Shown here one piece after another: positions 24,348 through 39,587 of a stretch of 64,000 bases of DNA (position 1 is the stretch's first letter; each line of letters opens with the position of its first letter). A program made the translations under genes and the position numbers. The notes below the pieces were generated by a model that saw only the letters and a list, made by a program, of their open reading frames with translations, was not told the DNA's origin and did not search any database. Source of the DNA: Candidatus Celerinatantimonas neptuna (GTDB taxonomy: Bacteria; Pseudomonadota; Gammaproteobacteria; Enterobacterales; Celerinatantimonadaceae). The stretch spans positions 675,501 through 739,500 of the forward strand of contig OU461276.1 of assembly GCA_911810475.1 (NCBI GenBank). The letters run 5' to 3'.

Positions 24348-24423
24348 TGGAGCGGCACACGAGGTTCGAACTCGTGACCTCGACCTTGGCAAGGTCGCGC
24401 TCTACCAACTGAGCTAGTGCCGC
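24348..24423 (-). tRNA. tRNA-Gly(GCC), third copy in transcription order
   Basis: The minus strand folds as a cloverleaf: acceptor GCGGCAC/GTGCCGC, D-arm AGTTGGTA, anticodon loop TTGCCAA (anticodon GCC) and T-loop TTCGAAC. CCA is encoded. It is identical to the next two copies. Confidence 0.97.
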
Positions 24424-24461
24424 ATTTCTAAAGCAAATCTGAAACAATATATATCAAAATT

Positions 24462-24537
24462 TGGAGCGGCACACGAGGTTCGAACTCGTGACCTCGACCT
24501 TGGCAAGGTCGCGCTCTACCAACTGAGCTAGTGCCGC
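24462..24537 (-). tRNA. tRNA-Gly(GCC), middle copy
   Basis: It is identical in sequence to the copies on either side, with CCA encoded and anticodon GCC. It lies exactly 114 bases from each neighbour, with nearly identical spacers, as expected for tandem duplication. E. coli has the same triplet (glyV, glyX, glyY) beside orn. Confidence 0.97.
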
Positions 24538-24575
24538 ATTTCTAAAGCAAACCTGGAACAACATATATCAAAATT

Positions 24576-24651
24576 TGGAGCGGCACACGAGGTTCGAACT
24601 CGTGACCTCGACCTTGGCAAGGTCGCGCTCTACCAACTGAGCTAGTGCCGC
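24576..24651 (-). tRNA. tRNA-Gly(GCC), first copy in transcription order
   Basis: It is identical to the two downstream copies, with anticodon GCC and CCA encoded. It is the promoter-proximal gene of the cluster, about 36 bases after the predicted transcription start. Confidence 0.97.
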
Positions 24652-34393: not shown

Positions 34394-34963
34394 TTATTTA
34401 GCCACCCGGCTCACATACTCACCGCTTCGGGTATCCACTTTGATCACTTCACCAATTTGAATGAACAAAGGAACACGAACCACGGCACCGGTACTTAATG
34501 TGGCAGGTTTACCACCCGTTCCGGCTGTATCACCTTTAAGACCAGGATCAGTCTCGGTCACTTCCAATTCAACAAAATTCGGTGGAGTTACGGCAATAGG
34601 CGCTTCATTCCAGGTTGTAATCGTACAGATATCCTGCTCAACCAACCATTTTTCATTGTCGCCAAGCGCTTTTGCATCGGCAGCAATCTGTTCGAAAGTA
34701 TCGTTATTCATAAAATGCCAGAACTCACCATCGTTATACAGATAAGCCAGTTCAATATCCATGACATCTGCACCATCAACAGTTTCACCCGACTTAAAAG
34801 TTTTTTCTAAAACTTTACCGGATAACAACCGACGAATTTTCACCCGGTTAAACGCCTGACCTTTACCTGGTTTCACAAATTCGTTCTCAATAATAGAGCA
34901 AGGCTCACCATCGAGCATAATTTTTAGCCCGGAACGGAATTCATTGGTACTATATGTTGCCAT
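34394..34963 (-). CDS. efp: Translation elongation factor P
   Basis: EF-P binds between the P and E sites and rescues ribosomes stalled at polyproline stretches. The product is 189 residues with three beta-barrel domains. The modified loop reads VKPGKGQAF with Lys34, the residue that EpmA and EpmB beta-lysylate. The Lys, rather than Arg, agrees with both modifying genes being present. It is divergent from epmB with 32 bases between start codons. Confidence 0.98.
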
Positions 34964-34995
34964 CTTTTCCTCTTAACCAATTATTCGTTTTTCAA

Positions 34996-36021
34996 ATGTC
35001 GCAAATTGTAACCCGAAATAGCAGTCCTTTGCAGATAAATTGGCAAAAAGAACTGTCAGATGTGATCACCGATCCCAGGCAACTATTGCTTGAACTTGAC
35101 TTAAACCCAGACGATTATGCCGAACACATAAAGGCTCGGCGTCTATTCCCTTTAAGGGTTCCACGCTATTTTGTCAGCCTCATGCAACGTGGCCACCCAA
35201 ATGACCCACTGCTGCGTCAAATTCTACCTGACTTGGCTGAGTTCAATATAACGCCCGGATTTAGCCCTGATCCGCTCAAAGAACAGCAGGGCCCGGTTCC
35301 GGGGTTACTCCACAAATACCATAACCGGGTTTTGTTAGTCGTCCGGGGGGGATGTGCTGTAAATTGTCGTTACTGCTTCCGGCGTCATTTTCCTTATCAG
35401 GATAATGCTCCGGGCCGTCACGGTTGGGATAAAGCAATCGAATATATAAATGCCCGCCCGGCCATCAATGAAGTTATTCTGAGCGGAGGCGATCCGTTAA
35501 TGGCCAATGACCGGCATCTGGCCAAACTCATTGATGCACTGGCCGATATCCCTCATTTGAAGCGATTACGAATTCATAGCCGCCTCCCTGTTGTAATCCC
35601 CAGTCGAATTACTCCTGGGCTGGTCGCACACCTCTCGAAATGCCGTCTGAAATGCACTCTAGTCACACACGTCAATCATCCAAATGAAGTAAGTGAACGA
35701 TTCAAACAGGCAATACGCCCATTACACCAGTCCGGTATCTGGCTTCTTAACCAAAGTGTTCTCCTGGCTGGCGTCAATGATAATGTCCAGACATTAGCCG
35801 AGCTGAGTGAAGCATTGTTTGATAGTGAAATCCATCCCTATTATCTGCATTTACTGGATAAAGTCAGTGGTGCGGCTCATTTCGAAGTTTCACAGGAACA
35901 GGCTATAGCAATCATGCAGGAACTCTATACACTGCTCCCGGGATTTCTCATTCCTCGACTGGTACGCGAAGAACCCCATAAACAAAGCAAGACACCGCAA
36001 GATCTAGGATTAAGTCGATAA
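34996..36021 (+). CDS. epmB: EpmB, lysine 2,3-aminomutase for EF-P modification
   Basis: EpmB is a radical SAM/PLP enzyme that turns (S)-alpha-lysine into (R)-beta-lysine for EpmA. I choose the ATG at 34996 (341 residues, MSQIVTRNSS), matching the E. coli N-terminus. The longer frame from 34954 overlaps efp. The radical SAM cluster motif is CAVNCRYC (Cys120, 124, 127), followed by EVILSGGDPLM. A MITE-like repeat begins at the base after its stop codon. Confidence 0.96.
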   Translation: MSQIVTRNSSPLQINWQKELSDVITDPRQLLLELDLNPDDYAEHIKARRLFPLRVPRYFVSLMQRGHPNDPLLRQILPDLAEFNITPGFSPDPLKEQQGPVPGLLHKYHNRVLLVVRGGCAVNCRYCFRRHFPYQDNAPGRHGWDKAIEYINARPAINEVILSGGDPLMANDRHLAKLIDALADIPHLKRLRIHSRLPVVIPSRITPGLVAHLSKCRLKCTLVTHVNHPNEVSERFKQAIRPLHQSGIWLLNQSVLLAGVNDNVQTLAELSEALFDSEIHPYYLHLLDKVSGAAHFEVSQEQAIAIMQELYTLLPGFLIPRLVREEPHKQSKTPQDLGLSR

Positions 36022-36224: not shown

Positions 36225-36542
36225 ATGGACCAGAAAAAAATAATTAAGCAACTGCAAATCAATATTAAAGAGATCTATCATAAAGCAATTGATGCAGACA
36301 AAATCATCAGCGAGAGACAAGGTGAAGGGTTAGGTCAATTTGACAAAATATTTGTTGAAGAAAGTCTTTTTCATAGTGAATCCGATCATTTTCTGCCTTA
36401 TGTCGAAGAGCTTGCAGCAGATTTGTTAACGCTACAAAACACCGAAAACCAGCAAGAATTTATCACAAATCTTGAAGTACTGGTCGTTAAAATCGAACTG
36501 GCACATAAAACACTCGCTTCGTTTAAACAATTTCTCGCCTGA
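36225..36542 (+). CDS. Small helical protein, possibly related to primosomal protein PriC
   Basis: The 105-residue product is acidic and helical, with no signal peptide or membrane segment. The stretch GQFDKIFVEESLF, then DHFLPYVEELAADLLTL, resembles the N-terminal helices of PriC (the FD...LF and VEE...NL pattern). PriC helps reload the replicative helicase at stalled forks. Full PriC is about 170-180 residues and its basic C-terminal half is missing here, so this is either a truncated or minimal PriC or an unrelated helical protein. It stands alone between epmB and the convergent signalling gene. Confidence 0.45.
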   Translation: MDQKKIIKQLQINIKEIYHKAIDADKIISERQGEGLGQFDKIFVEESLFHSESDHFLPYVEELAADLLTLQNTENQQEFITNLEVLVVKIELAHKTLASFKQFLA

Positions 36543-36582: not shown

Positions 36583-38466
36583 TCAGGCCGGTTGAACCAA
36601 TTGTTCTAACAAATAAGTCTCTACATCCGCGGCGGGTAAAAAAGGCGCATAGATTGACCCGCAAACAAAAGCACCAGGAATAGAATCTTGAATGATTTTA
36701 AGCTGTTCATGTGCGACAACCCCTTCAAAAATCACCTGTCGTTTCAACATTAACAACAGTTGATTCAACGCATTCAAATATTTTAGATAACAGCTTTGCG
36801 TCAATTCAGCCGTAATCGGTGCAATAACTTTAATATAATCACTGGGATCACGAATCAGTCTACGCCAGCTGCCGACACTTGTCGTAAACTCTGACAAAAT
36901 CACCGTCACGCCCACCTTTCGCAATTCATCAAGTAACACTGGCAATTTACAACTACGCTGCACATCAGACGACTCTAAAGCCAGCATAACCTGATGAGGA
37001 ATAATCGAAGAACATTTTAAATGCTTCTTCAACAAAGCAATTTTAGCCGTTCCCAACGAGGCAAGGGATATCGGCAGAATTAATTTCAAACGACTATCAA
37101 TTTTCTGCTGCCACAACTTATGCTGCAAAAAAGCATTTTCAAACAACCAGTCAGTCAAGACACGATAGAAGCTCGCCTGCTCAGCAATATGAGTCAGCTC
37201 ATCATGTTCAATACGCCCTATTTGCGGATGCTGCCAACGCATCTTAATTTGCAATGCGACCGGCAATTGTGTATTCACCTGAATAACCGGCTGATAAAGC
37301 AAACTCACCTGCCGATGCTCCAACGCCCCACTAATATCTTCTAACAATTGATAATACCGCCTGATCTTACGCAAAACATCTTCATGAAAATAACGTATCG
37401 GCTCACCTTGTTGATATAAAGAAATATTCACCTGAGTCAGCAGTTCATCAGGTTCAATATGGCAATAATTCACAGGCACAATACCCATCTTAATATCAAT
37501 ATAAAATGTTTGATGTTCCAGTCCATAAGGCTGCGTCATTAATTTATAGAGATAATCAGCATATTGGGATACGGATTCATGAGAAGCTTTAGGGTAAATA
37601 ACCAACAAACGATATGATTCAATACGAACCACATAAACCTCGGAAGACTTTTTACGATTCAACCTCTGAACCATCATTTGCAATAACTGCTGCGCAAGTA
37701 AACTATCAGCGGTCATTAACTGAGACTGAACCAGTTCAATAGCAAATACCGTAAAAGCCTCATCACCGGATAATTTTTGTTTCAGCCATTGATTAAGCCA
37801 ATTACGACTGAAGAGGCGAGTTGATTGATCATGCGTCATTAACCAGCGATTTAGCCTGTATTGATACCACCAGCATCCAAATAGAATTGAACATGCTATT
37901 AACATACCAACAATCGACCACAATAATAACCGCTGTTGATCCTGAAACATCACGGTTACAGCAGACTGATATCGGGTAATACGATGAAATTCCCGATTCA
38001 CTAACACATTAATCGGAGCACTAAAACTCTCAAGCCAGCCCAGGACTTTCGGAACCTCGATACGCGTTCTGGGCAGACTATCCAACATAGGTTCAATTCG
38101 CTGAACCTCAGAAAACATATCAGCCACCAAAGCCTTAGCACCGGGGATATGATCTAAATCGGATACTTCGTTACCATGCAACAAAACCGGGAAACGGCTC
38201 CAAAAAATATTATACCGAAACAAAACCTGTTGTTTGTCGTTCCCTTTAAGCTCATATAAACGTAACGTATTGATAAATCGACGATGCTCTTCCTGAAGTT
38301 GCACCAGTCCCCAAGCTGTGGACGATGGCCATGATTCAAGAATGACCGATGCACGATACATCTTAAAACCAGTCCACAACGCACTCAATAAACAAATCAA
38401 TAATGCCGCTGAGGCAGCGATTCTCACAAAACTCCAACGCTTAATTTGAAACAATGAAATCACCAT
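36583..38466 (-). CDS. Membrane protein with degenerate GGDEF and EAL domains
   Basis: With the ATG at 38464-38466 the protein is 627 residues. Two membrane segments (about 16-33 and 181-201) enclose a periplasmic sensor region of about 145 residues. A GGDEF-like domain begins THDQSTRLFSRN, but the active site reads IESYR (282-286). The EAL-like domain has QIK (406-408) for EAL, SEF (525-527) for the DDFG loop and no KID. Neither c-di-GMP synthesis nor hydrolysis is expected, so it should act by binding a ligand or partner. The start shares one base with the upstream stop (TGATG). A periplasmic partner encoded upstream suggests a PruR-DcpA-like pair. Confidence 0.85.
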   Translation of the reverse strand: MVISLFQIKRWSFVRIAASAALLICLLSALWTGFKMYRASVILESWPSSTAWGLVQLQEEHRRFINTLRLYELKGNDKQQVLFRYNIFWSRFPVLLHGNEVSDLDHIPGAKALVADMFSEVQRIEPMLDSLPRTRIEVPKVLGWLESFSAPINVLVNREFHRITRYQSAVTVMFQDQQRLLLWSIVGMLIACSILFGCWWYQYRLNRWLMTHDQSTRLFSRNWLNQWLKQKLSGDEAFTVFAIELVQSQLMTADSLLAQQLLQMMVQRLNRKKSSEVYVVRIESYRLLVIYPKASHESVSQYADYLYKLMTQPYGLEHQTFYIDIKMGIVPVNYCHIEPDELLTQVNISLYQQGEPIRYFHEDVLRKIRRYYQLLEDISGALEHRQVSLLYQPVIQVNTQLPVALQIKMRWQHPQIGRIEHDELTHIAEQASFYRVLTDWLFENAFLQHKLWQQKIDSRLKLILPISLASLGTAKIALLKKHLKCSSIIPHQVMLALESSDVQRSCKLPVLLDELRKVGVTVILSEFTTSVGSWRRLIRDPSDYIKVIAPITAELTQSCYLKYLNALNQLLLMLKRQVIFEGVVAHEQLKIIQDSIPGAFVCGSIYAPFLPAADVETYLLEQLVQPA

Positions 38467-38969
38467 CAATGATGTACGATGATACGGCGCAGCTGCCAAA
38501 CCATATATGAATTATATTGGTTATCTTTGAGCTCTGGATAACGAAAAACTGGCAACATTAGCCATAAAGGCCCCCGATCCCGAACTGACATTATTTTTCC
38601 ATTGTCAGACCAGGCTAATATCGGATGATACTTTTGAATCTTTTTAAAATTCAAATCAATCTGGTAGTCATTCAAGGCAATCAGTGTCAATCGATCAGAG
38701 CCTGCCCCCACTTTTTTTAAAATTGCTGATAACCGGGGTCCACGATACTTATGTGGTTCACTCACCCAAGGGTTTTTCGTTTTAAACACATATTGAGGTA
38801 ATGCTTTGAGCTCAGCAAGTGTAAAATCAACCCGATGCACTTCGCCTCCTTTAGTAATCGCCCCGGAAACACTCAGAATAACCCTGTCAGAGGCACGCCC
38901 CTGAGCACTGAATACGCTCAGAAAAAAGACCATAATCATGATGCCGACAACGTTACGATTCTGCCTCAT
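38466..38969 (-). CDS. Periplasmic SUOX-fold (molybdopterin-binding-like) protein, PruR-like
   Basis: I choose the ATG at 38967-38969 (167 residues), with AAGGAA upstream and a signal peptide (hydrophobic core near residues 9-20, cleavage near GRA-SD). The mature part has the oxidoreductase molybdopterin-binding pattern: LSVSGAI, FTLAELKALP, YRGPRLSAILKKVG, ALNDYQIDL and RDRGPLWLMLP. No cysteine is present, so the Mo ligand of sulfite oxidases is missing. Small proteins of this kind, such as Agrobacterium PruR, bind pterins and control a GGDEF-EAL partner. That role is inferred from fold and from coupling to the gene at 36583. Confidence 0.75.
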   Translation of the reverse strand: MRQNRNVVGIMIMVFFLSVFSAQGRASDRVILSVSGAITKGGEVHRVDFTLAELKALPQYVFKTKNPWVSEPHKYRGPRLSAILKKVGAGSDRLTLIALNDYQIDLNFKKIQKYHPILAWSDNGKIMSVRDRGPLWLMLPVFRYPELKDNQYNSYMVWQLRRIIVHH

Positions 38970-39587
38970 TACTAAATTCCTTGATTGCTGATTCAGGCGA
39001 TAATGCAACATCAGTTCACAATATTCACGGCTATCATGCCCTGGGAGCTCTCGTTAGTTTAGATGAAATCTTGCTCAGCCGATAAAACTTCCAAGGTTGG
39101 ACTTAAAACAACTGAACACACTTTGACTATGAGCTTAGCACTGTATATAAACAGACCTCAAAAAGCGCCCTTGATATTGCATCACCATTCAGACAAATAT
39201 TGACGCTGTAAACATTTCATCAAAAAAGTTTTTTATCATTTAATACAGTTTAATTGATAAATTACAAACAGCAGTGGATAACATATAAGTTAATATTAAA
39301 ATTGTTATAAAACAATATAGCTAATTATATACCAGACAAATATTTTCTAATATGTACAATAGATTAAATCTCTATAAACATATAAATTTACTACCAATTA
39401 CTTATAATTATCCTAGAGGCTTTAAAAAAGTAAAAATCCAATCATAAGCCCAGTTTCTATCAAATCTCAGAGTTTTTCTATTATTCAAATAACTTTTTGC
39501 TATAAGTCGTTTTAATTTATAACTTTGACTCCACTCATTTGTTTCGTAAACTAAATGTAAAATTTTATACAGAACGGAATCATCAAG
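38970..39587. other. AT-rich intergenic region upstream of the ABC importer operon
   Basis: About 600 bases without a convincing gene. The section from 39230 to 39560 is very AT-rich. Promoters for the divergent PruR-like gene and the importer operon must lie here, but I found no clear operator or conserved hairpin. Confidence 0.45.

Follow-up and report, generated by a model that had tools for sequence, protein, structure and literature searches.

What does a receptor pass on to the cell once its enzymatic half has lost both active sites? This question is raised by a pruR-dcpA operon in the window, a stretch of 64,000 nucleotides of the Candidatus Celerinatantimonas neptuna genome (Table 1). 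PruR pterin signalling was discovered only recently, and to our knowledge its output has so far been either c-di-GMP turnover or a histidine kinase. The genome consists of 4.13 Mb in one contig, belongs to the same genus as Celerinatantimonas diazotrophica, and contains 22 GGDEF and 11 EAL matches.

Table 1. Features of the pruR-dcpA locus and its neighbours in the window.
Feature	Coordinates	Strand	Remarks
pruR	38466..38969	-	periplasmic SUOX-fold pterin-binding protein (identity by homology), 167 aa including signal peptide
PruR Trp, equivalent to A. tumefaciens Trp160	38496..38498	-	pterin site, by homology; invariant in alignment A3
PruR Asn-Asp-Tyr, equivalent to A. tumefaciens Asn102/Tyr104	38664..38672	-	pterin site, by homology
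dcpA homologue	36583..38466	-	627 aa; receptor with two TM helices whose GGDEF and EAL domains are degenerate
DcpA periplasmic domain	37933..38367	-	all-helical, residues 34-178
WX7E motif WGLVQLQEE	38287..38313	-	signature of DcpA/DTB periplasmic domains
Degenerate GGDEF domain	37399..37842	-	residues 209-356
ESYRL replacing GGDEF	37606..37620	-	E283 to L287
Degenerate EAL domain	36592..37350	-	residues 373-625
Most conserved stretch within the dead EAL domain	37192..37302	-	residues 389-425
QIK replacing EAL	37243..37251	-	starts at Q406
SEFT replacing DDFG	36883..36894	-	starts at S525
PriC-like protein	36225..36542	+	105 aa; neighbour whose conservation marks the syntenic locus; does not belong to the sensor
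epmB-like gene	34954..36021	+	radical SAM lysine aminomutase; syntenic neighbour
efp (which we take it to be from established family knowledge)	34394..34963	-	syntenic neighbour

The pruR gene starts with an ATG at 38969, with AAGGA just upstream, and ends with a TGA (38468-38466) that shares one base with the dcpA start codon (ATG, 38466); the first-pass annotation had correctly noted this TGATG overlap, and both genes lie on the minus strand. The PruR protein begins with a signal peptide (a hydrophobic segment followed by AQGRA/S) and contains no cysteine at all, so that a Mo-ligating Cys is absent. Solved PruR structures of Vibrio, Klebsiella, and Agrobacterium proteins (7kom, 7kp2, 7kos, and 7rkb) were matched by phmmer with E values of 7e-26 to 1e-16, and the AF2 model (pLDDT 87) superposed on 7kos with an rmsd of 1.6 and a TM of 0.89 by target. 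The earlier description of a secreted SUOX-fold protein without the Mo-binding Cys is borne out by these matches, and support for the identity of PruR comes from its sequence and structure models as well as from synteny and a wide survey. The pterin-site residues of A. tumefaciens PruR given in a review (PMC13259868), Asn102, Tyr104, and Trp160, correspond to Asn114, Tyr116, and Trp172, each shifted by 12 when numbered from an upstream ATG at 39011. By homology with the Agrobacterium system, this protein, the only PruR found in the genome, would bind a pterin.

The DcpA homologue is predicted to cross the membrane twice, with TM helices at roughly residues 12-31 and 180-200, in line with the two-pass membrane protein proposed at first. 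Its receptor domain is the only one of the DcpA type found in the genome by a single-sequence search, and in the alignment the WX7E motif has an invariant E60 and a W52 that is conserved in at least 90%. The protein matches PF00990 at 1.9e-8 and PF00563 at 2.5e-26, and a GGDEF-EAL fold is still predicted (model pLDDT 87). The GGDEF-EAL model aligned with 5m3c_A (PA0575) at Z 31.5 over 405 residues with an rmsd of 7.3, which probably reflects domain orientation, and the EAL domain alone with 8arv_A (BifA) at Z 31.2 and an rmsd of 2.0. Sequence, structure models, synteny, and survey agree on the coupling of PruR to a DcpA-type receptor.

Pairs of PruR with DcpA or DTB are known in thousands of proteobacterial sequences, according to the review (PMC13259868). 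There, the A. tumefaciens system is likewise a two-gene operon with a secreted SUOX-fold PruR that lacks the Mo-ligating Cys, a DcpA with two TM helices, a WX7E periplasmic domain and a GGDEF-EAL half, and a pteridine reductase in the genome. A candidate PruA/FolM pteridine reductase gene was also found in the present genome (G000:C1:4023385-4024065); the protein carries TGX3RXG and YX3K, and its best NCBIfam match is dihydromonapterin reductase, at 204 bits versus a cut-off of 249. The PruR-DTB systems share the PruR and WX7E module and also have an output other than c-di-GMP turnover, but this output is a histidine kinase rather than a dead GGDEF-EAL module (PMC13259868). Whereas A. tumefaciens DcpA has both c-di-GMP activities, both sites are lost here, and the part of the review available to us makes no mention of degenerate DcpA proteins (PMC13259868).

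The sites were assigned by alignment to intact proteins of the same genome. In the GGDEF domain the loss of the motif stands, but the letters originally given, IESYR, do not; the aligned site is ESYRL, shifted by one residue. The QIK in place of EAL and the loss of the DDFG loop (SEFT) were seen in the alignment as first read. Of the seven catalytic residues in the EAL site, five have been lost and two are kept (K and the E of EGV), and the changes in the pocket comprise E to Q, N to P/I, E to A, DD to SE, the last E of EGVE to V, and Q to C. The intact GGDEF and EAL catalytic residues that mark a dual cyclase/phosphodiesterase are absent. It is a general observation that some divergent GGDEF or EAL motifs are active, and the present protein retains K and one E in its EAL site; an active enzyme with a non-standard site is nevertheless most improbable, as this site lacks the E of the EAL motif, both D, the N, and the second E, and the GGDEF motif is lost entirely. 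The C. diazotrophica orthologue also lacks both sites (SENEF and QMR) and retains an intact ORF, and the degeneracy is therefore not due to chance or sequencing error. Alignment, sister species, and survey support the loss of both catalytic sites, and it is well supported, at the level of these residues, that the DcpA homologue would neither make nor hydrolyse c-di-GMP.

Dead GGDEF-EAL proteins as such are common, and some of them act as receptors. LapD and FimX are two such proteins, without catalysis but with c-di-GMP binding, the DcpA model superposes on both, and the Arg following the EAL motif is kept (QIKMRW), the counterpart of which in LapD, R450, lies at the centre of the site. A comparable receptor, in which the dead EAL domain still binds c-di-GMP and integrates pterin outside with c-di-GMP inside, is nonetheless unlikely here. 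Most of the pocket residues have changed, which speaks against c-di-GMP binding, the pocket of C. diazotrophica differs again (QMR and others), and inspection of the DcpA homologue revealed no I-site (RxxD). The NCBIfam LapD model NF045673 gave no match to the window protein up to E 1. LapD of P. fluorescens is, like the DcpA homologue, an inner-membrane GGDEF-EAL protein without catalysis, but it has a HAMP domain, signals inside-out to the protease LapG, has kept c-di-GMP binding, and has no PruR.

Another membrane GGDEF-EAL protein with degenerate sites is CsrD of E. coli, which targets CsrB/C for RNase E; its output is non-catalytic, as that of the DcpA homologue would be, but it differs in its RNase E/CsrB output and in its sensor domain. 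An adaptor of this type, with an output in the control of RNA decay rather than in contact with a c-di-GMP enzyme, is very unlikely in our case, since the genome has its own CsrD-like protein in the G000:C1:854252 region (L061), whose best match to the CsrD model NF008281 reaches 513 bits against a cut-off of 663 bits. The same model gave no match to the window DcpA up to E 1. This result, together with the separate CsrD-like protein, rules out that the DcpA homologue is CsrD itself. The CsrD-like protein has a GAPES4 sensor and a partly degenerate EAL domain (DRAG for DDFG).

With the PruR alignment as query, ORFs downstream of PruR were retrieved from relatives as well as from 80 named genome contigs; the DcpA protein as query found no related loci in the genome contigs. 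Co-occurrence of the pair is strict; pruR lies upstream of dcpA in 25 of the 26 relatives' loci and the exception (L039) lies at a contig end. An EAL-like domain was present in 87 of the 144 PruR-linked downstream ORFs, 76 of them distinct. Both sites are intact in 26 of these, the EAL site only in 24, the GGDEF site only in 9, and neither in 17; since the loci were chosen by similarity to the window, these counts are not frequencies for all PruR systems. Motifs were called from a full-length alignment, as HMM-based calling missed the GGDEF domain of C. diazotrophica.

The states are distributed by genus. At the Aeromonas locus (L066-L085) the EAL site is intact and the GGDEF motif reads GGDQF, GGDQL, or VGDQF; because of this E to Q exchange the cyclase is presumed lost, and the PruR-linked DcpA proteins are apparently phosphodiesterase-only receptors throughout the sampled genus. 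Agarivorans and Aliagarivorans (L025-L033) have an intact GGDEF site and a dead EAL site. Genomes of the Oceanimonas/Zobellella type carry a double-dead copy at the locus and an intact copy elsewhere, Celerinatantimonas carries a double-dead copy only, and both sites are likewise dead in L034, which comes from another family. In two more PruR-linked DcpA proteins GGDEF alone is altered, to NSDEF in L206 (G268) and to GGDVF in L046 (G147), which suggests further single losses elsewhere.

Gene order connects these genera. The priC-like gene, epmB, and efp follow pruR-dcpA in Celerinatantimonas, Agarivorans, Aliagarivorans, Oceanimonas, and Zobellella, and groEL lies upstream of it in Aliagarivorans, Oceanimonas, and Aeromonas. 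Given these shared neighbours, the pruR-dcpA loci of these genera are orthologues. The 105-aa PriC-like protein falls below the Pfam cut-off and is kept between epmB and dcpA in several genera. Elsewhere in the window (24348-24651), three tandem tRNA-Gly(GCC) genes are spaced by exactly 114 bases.

A tree (INDEPENDENCE) was computed after removal of the motif columns, and on it the EAL site changed state at least 2 times and the GGDEF site at least 4 times. When the double-dead proteins were all constrained to be monophyletic, the log-likelihood fell by 73 units (AU p 7.7e-6, about 8e-6), and a common origin of these forms is thereby rejected. Long branches (L034 and L024) are present in the tree and make the placement of L034 unsure. 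The synteny makes the case for repeated loss without the tree. EAL was probably the first site lost in the family to which Celerinatantimonas belongs, and GGDEF probably the first in the Aeromonadaceae. Because the same locus has lost GGDEF, EAL, or both in related genera, the enzymatic output of the receptor has been repeatedly dispensable there, with the sensor retained. The pair type and dead GGDEF-EAL proteins are already known; the unusual feature is the repeated loss at one locus.

Loss of activity may also be the beginning of decay, and the cytoplasmic half could be a remnant drifting towards a pseudogene or a mere folded stub. Between the two Celerinatantimonas species, identity is 21% in the GGDEF domain and 36% in the EAL domain, compared to 63% in the periplasmic domain and 70-90% in the neighbouring genes, and this fast divergence of the dead domains fits relaxed constraint. 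As dS is saturated in this pair, dN/dS was left unused for the dead half. A remnant is nevertheless fairly unlikely. The 627-codon ORF is intact in both species despite saturated synonymous sites, with no stop codon where about 29 would be expected in an unconstrained frame (3/64 x 627), and the operon, the WX7E motif, and the well-conserved periplasmic domain have been retained. Within the dead EAL domain, residues 389-425 are conserved above the level of the domain (65% identity, permutation p 0.005). EAL domains in general are also well conserved in this stretch. In the independent double-dead clade, omega of the dead domains lies between 0.07 and 0.30. Close double-dead pairs of the Oceanimonas/Zobellella type gave values of 0.03-0.19 for the periplasmic, 0.07-0.19 for the GGDEF, and 0.16-0.30 for the EAL domain, compared to 0.02-0.20 for intact EAL domains and 0.02-0.04 for the dead EAL domains of close Agarivorans/Aliagarivorans pairs. 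These low values indicate that the dead domains are constrained, the double-dead EAL domain less than when it is active.

On balance, we regard it as somewhat probable that the PruR-DcpA pterin receptor has been turned into a non-catalytic adaptor with docking to another protein as its output. The pterin input and the loss of catalysis are both well supported, and we infer docking, in keeping with the protein-protein interaction suggested at first, because catalysis is lost and selection is retained. The degenerate EAL domain of LapD docks the active cyclase GcbC via its alpha2 helix, and a ligand strengthens this docking. The conserved patch of the DcpA homologue extends into a model helix (residues 421-430) that may correspond to this helix, and its dead EAL domain could dock in a similar manner.

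The adaptor would then be a vertically inherited PruR-DcpA receptor whose cytoplasmic half became a pseudoenzyme. A reduced pterin, probably the product of the FolM/PruA-like reductase, would enter the periplasm and bind PruR, and PruR would contact the helical domain of DcpA that bears the WX7E motif, as homology suggests and as conservation of the motif here would allow. Both TM helices would carry the signal to a GGDEF-EAL module which, judged by its sequence, is without catalysis. The putative output is altered docking to another protein via the dead EAL domain, most likely to one of the cell's active GGDEF/EAL enzymes. For the family as a whole, it is plausible, though somewhat short of probable, that c-di-GMP enzymology was exchanged for pure docking repeatedly and independently, in opposite orders of loss and at one locus.

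If this is true, a periplasmic pterin signal would reach c-di-GMP enzymes, or a wholly different target, via a pseudoenzyme adaptor. At one syntenic locus, orthologous receptors have been reduced in three ways (to EAL alone, to GGDEF alone, or to neither), always with the sensor kept, and intact paralogues accompany some of the dead copies, by which it can be tested whether the receptor depends on c-di-GMP turnover as its essential output. The locus would offer a natural series showing how signalling enzymes become adaptors.
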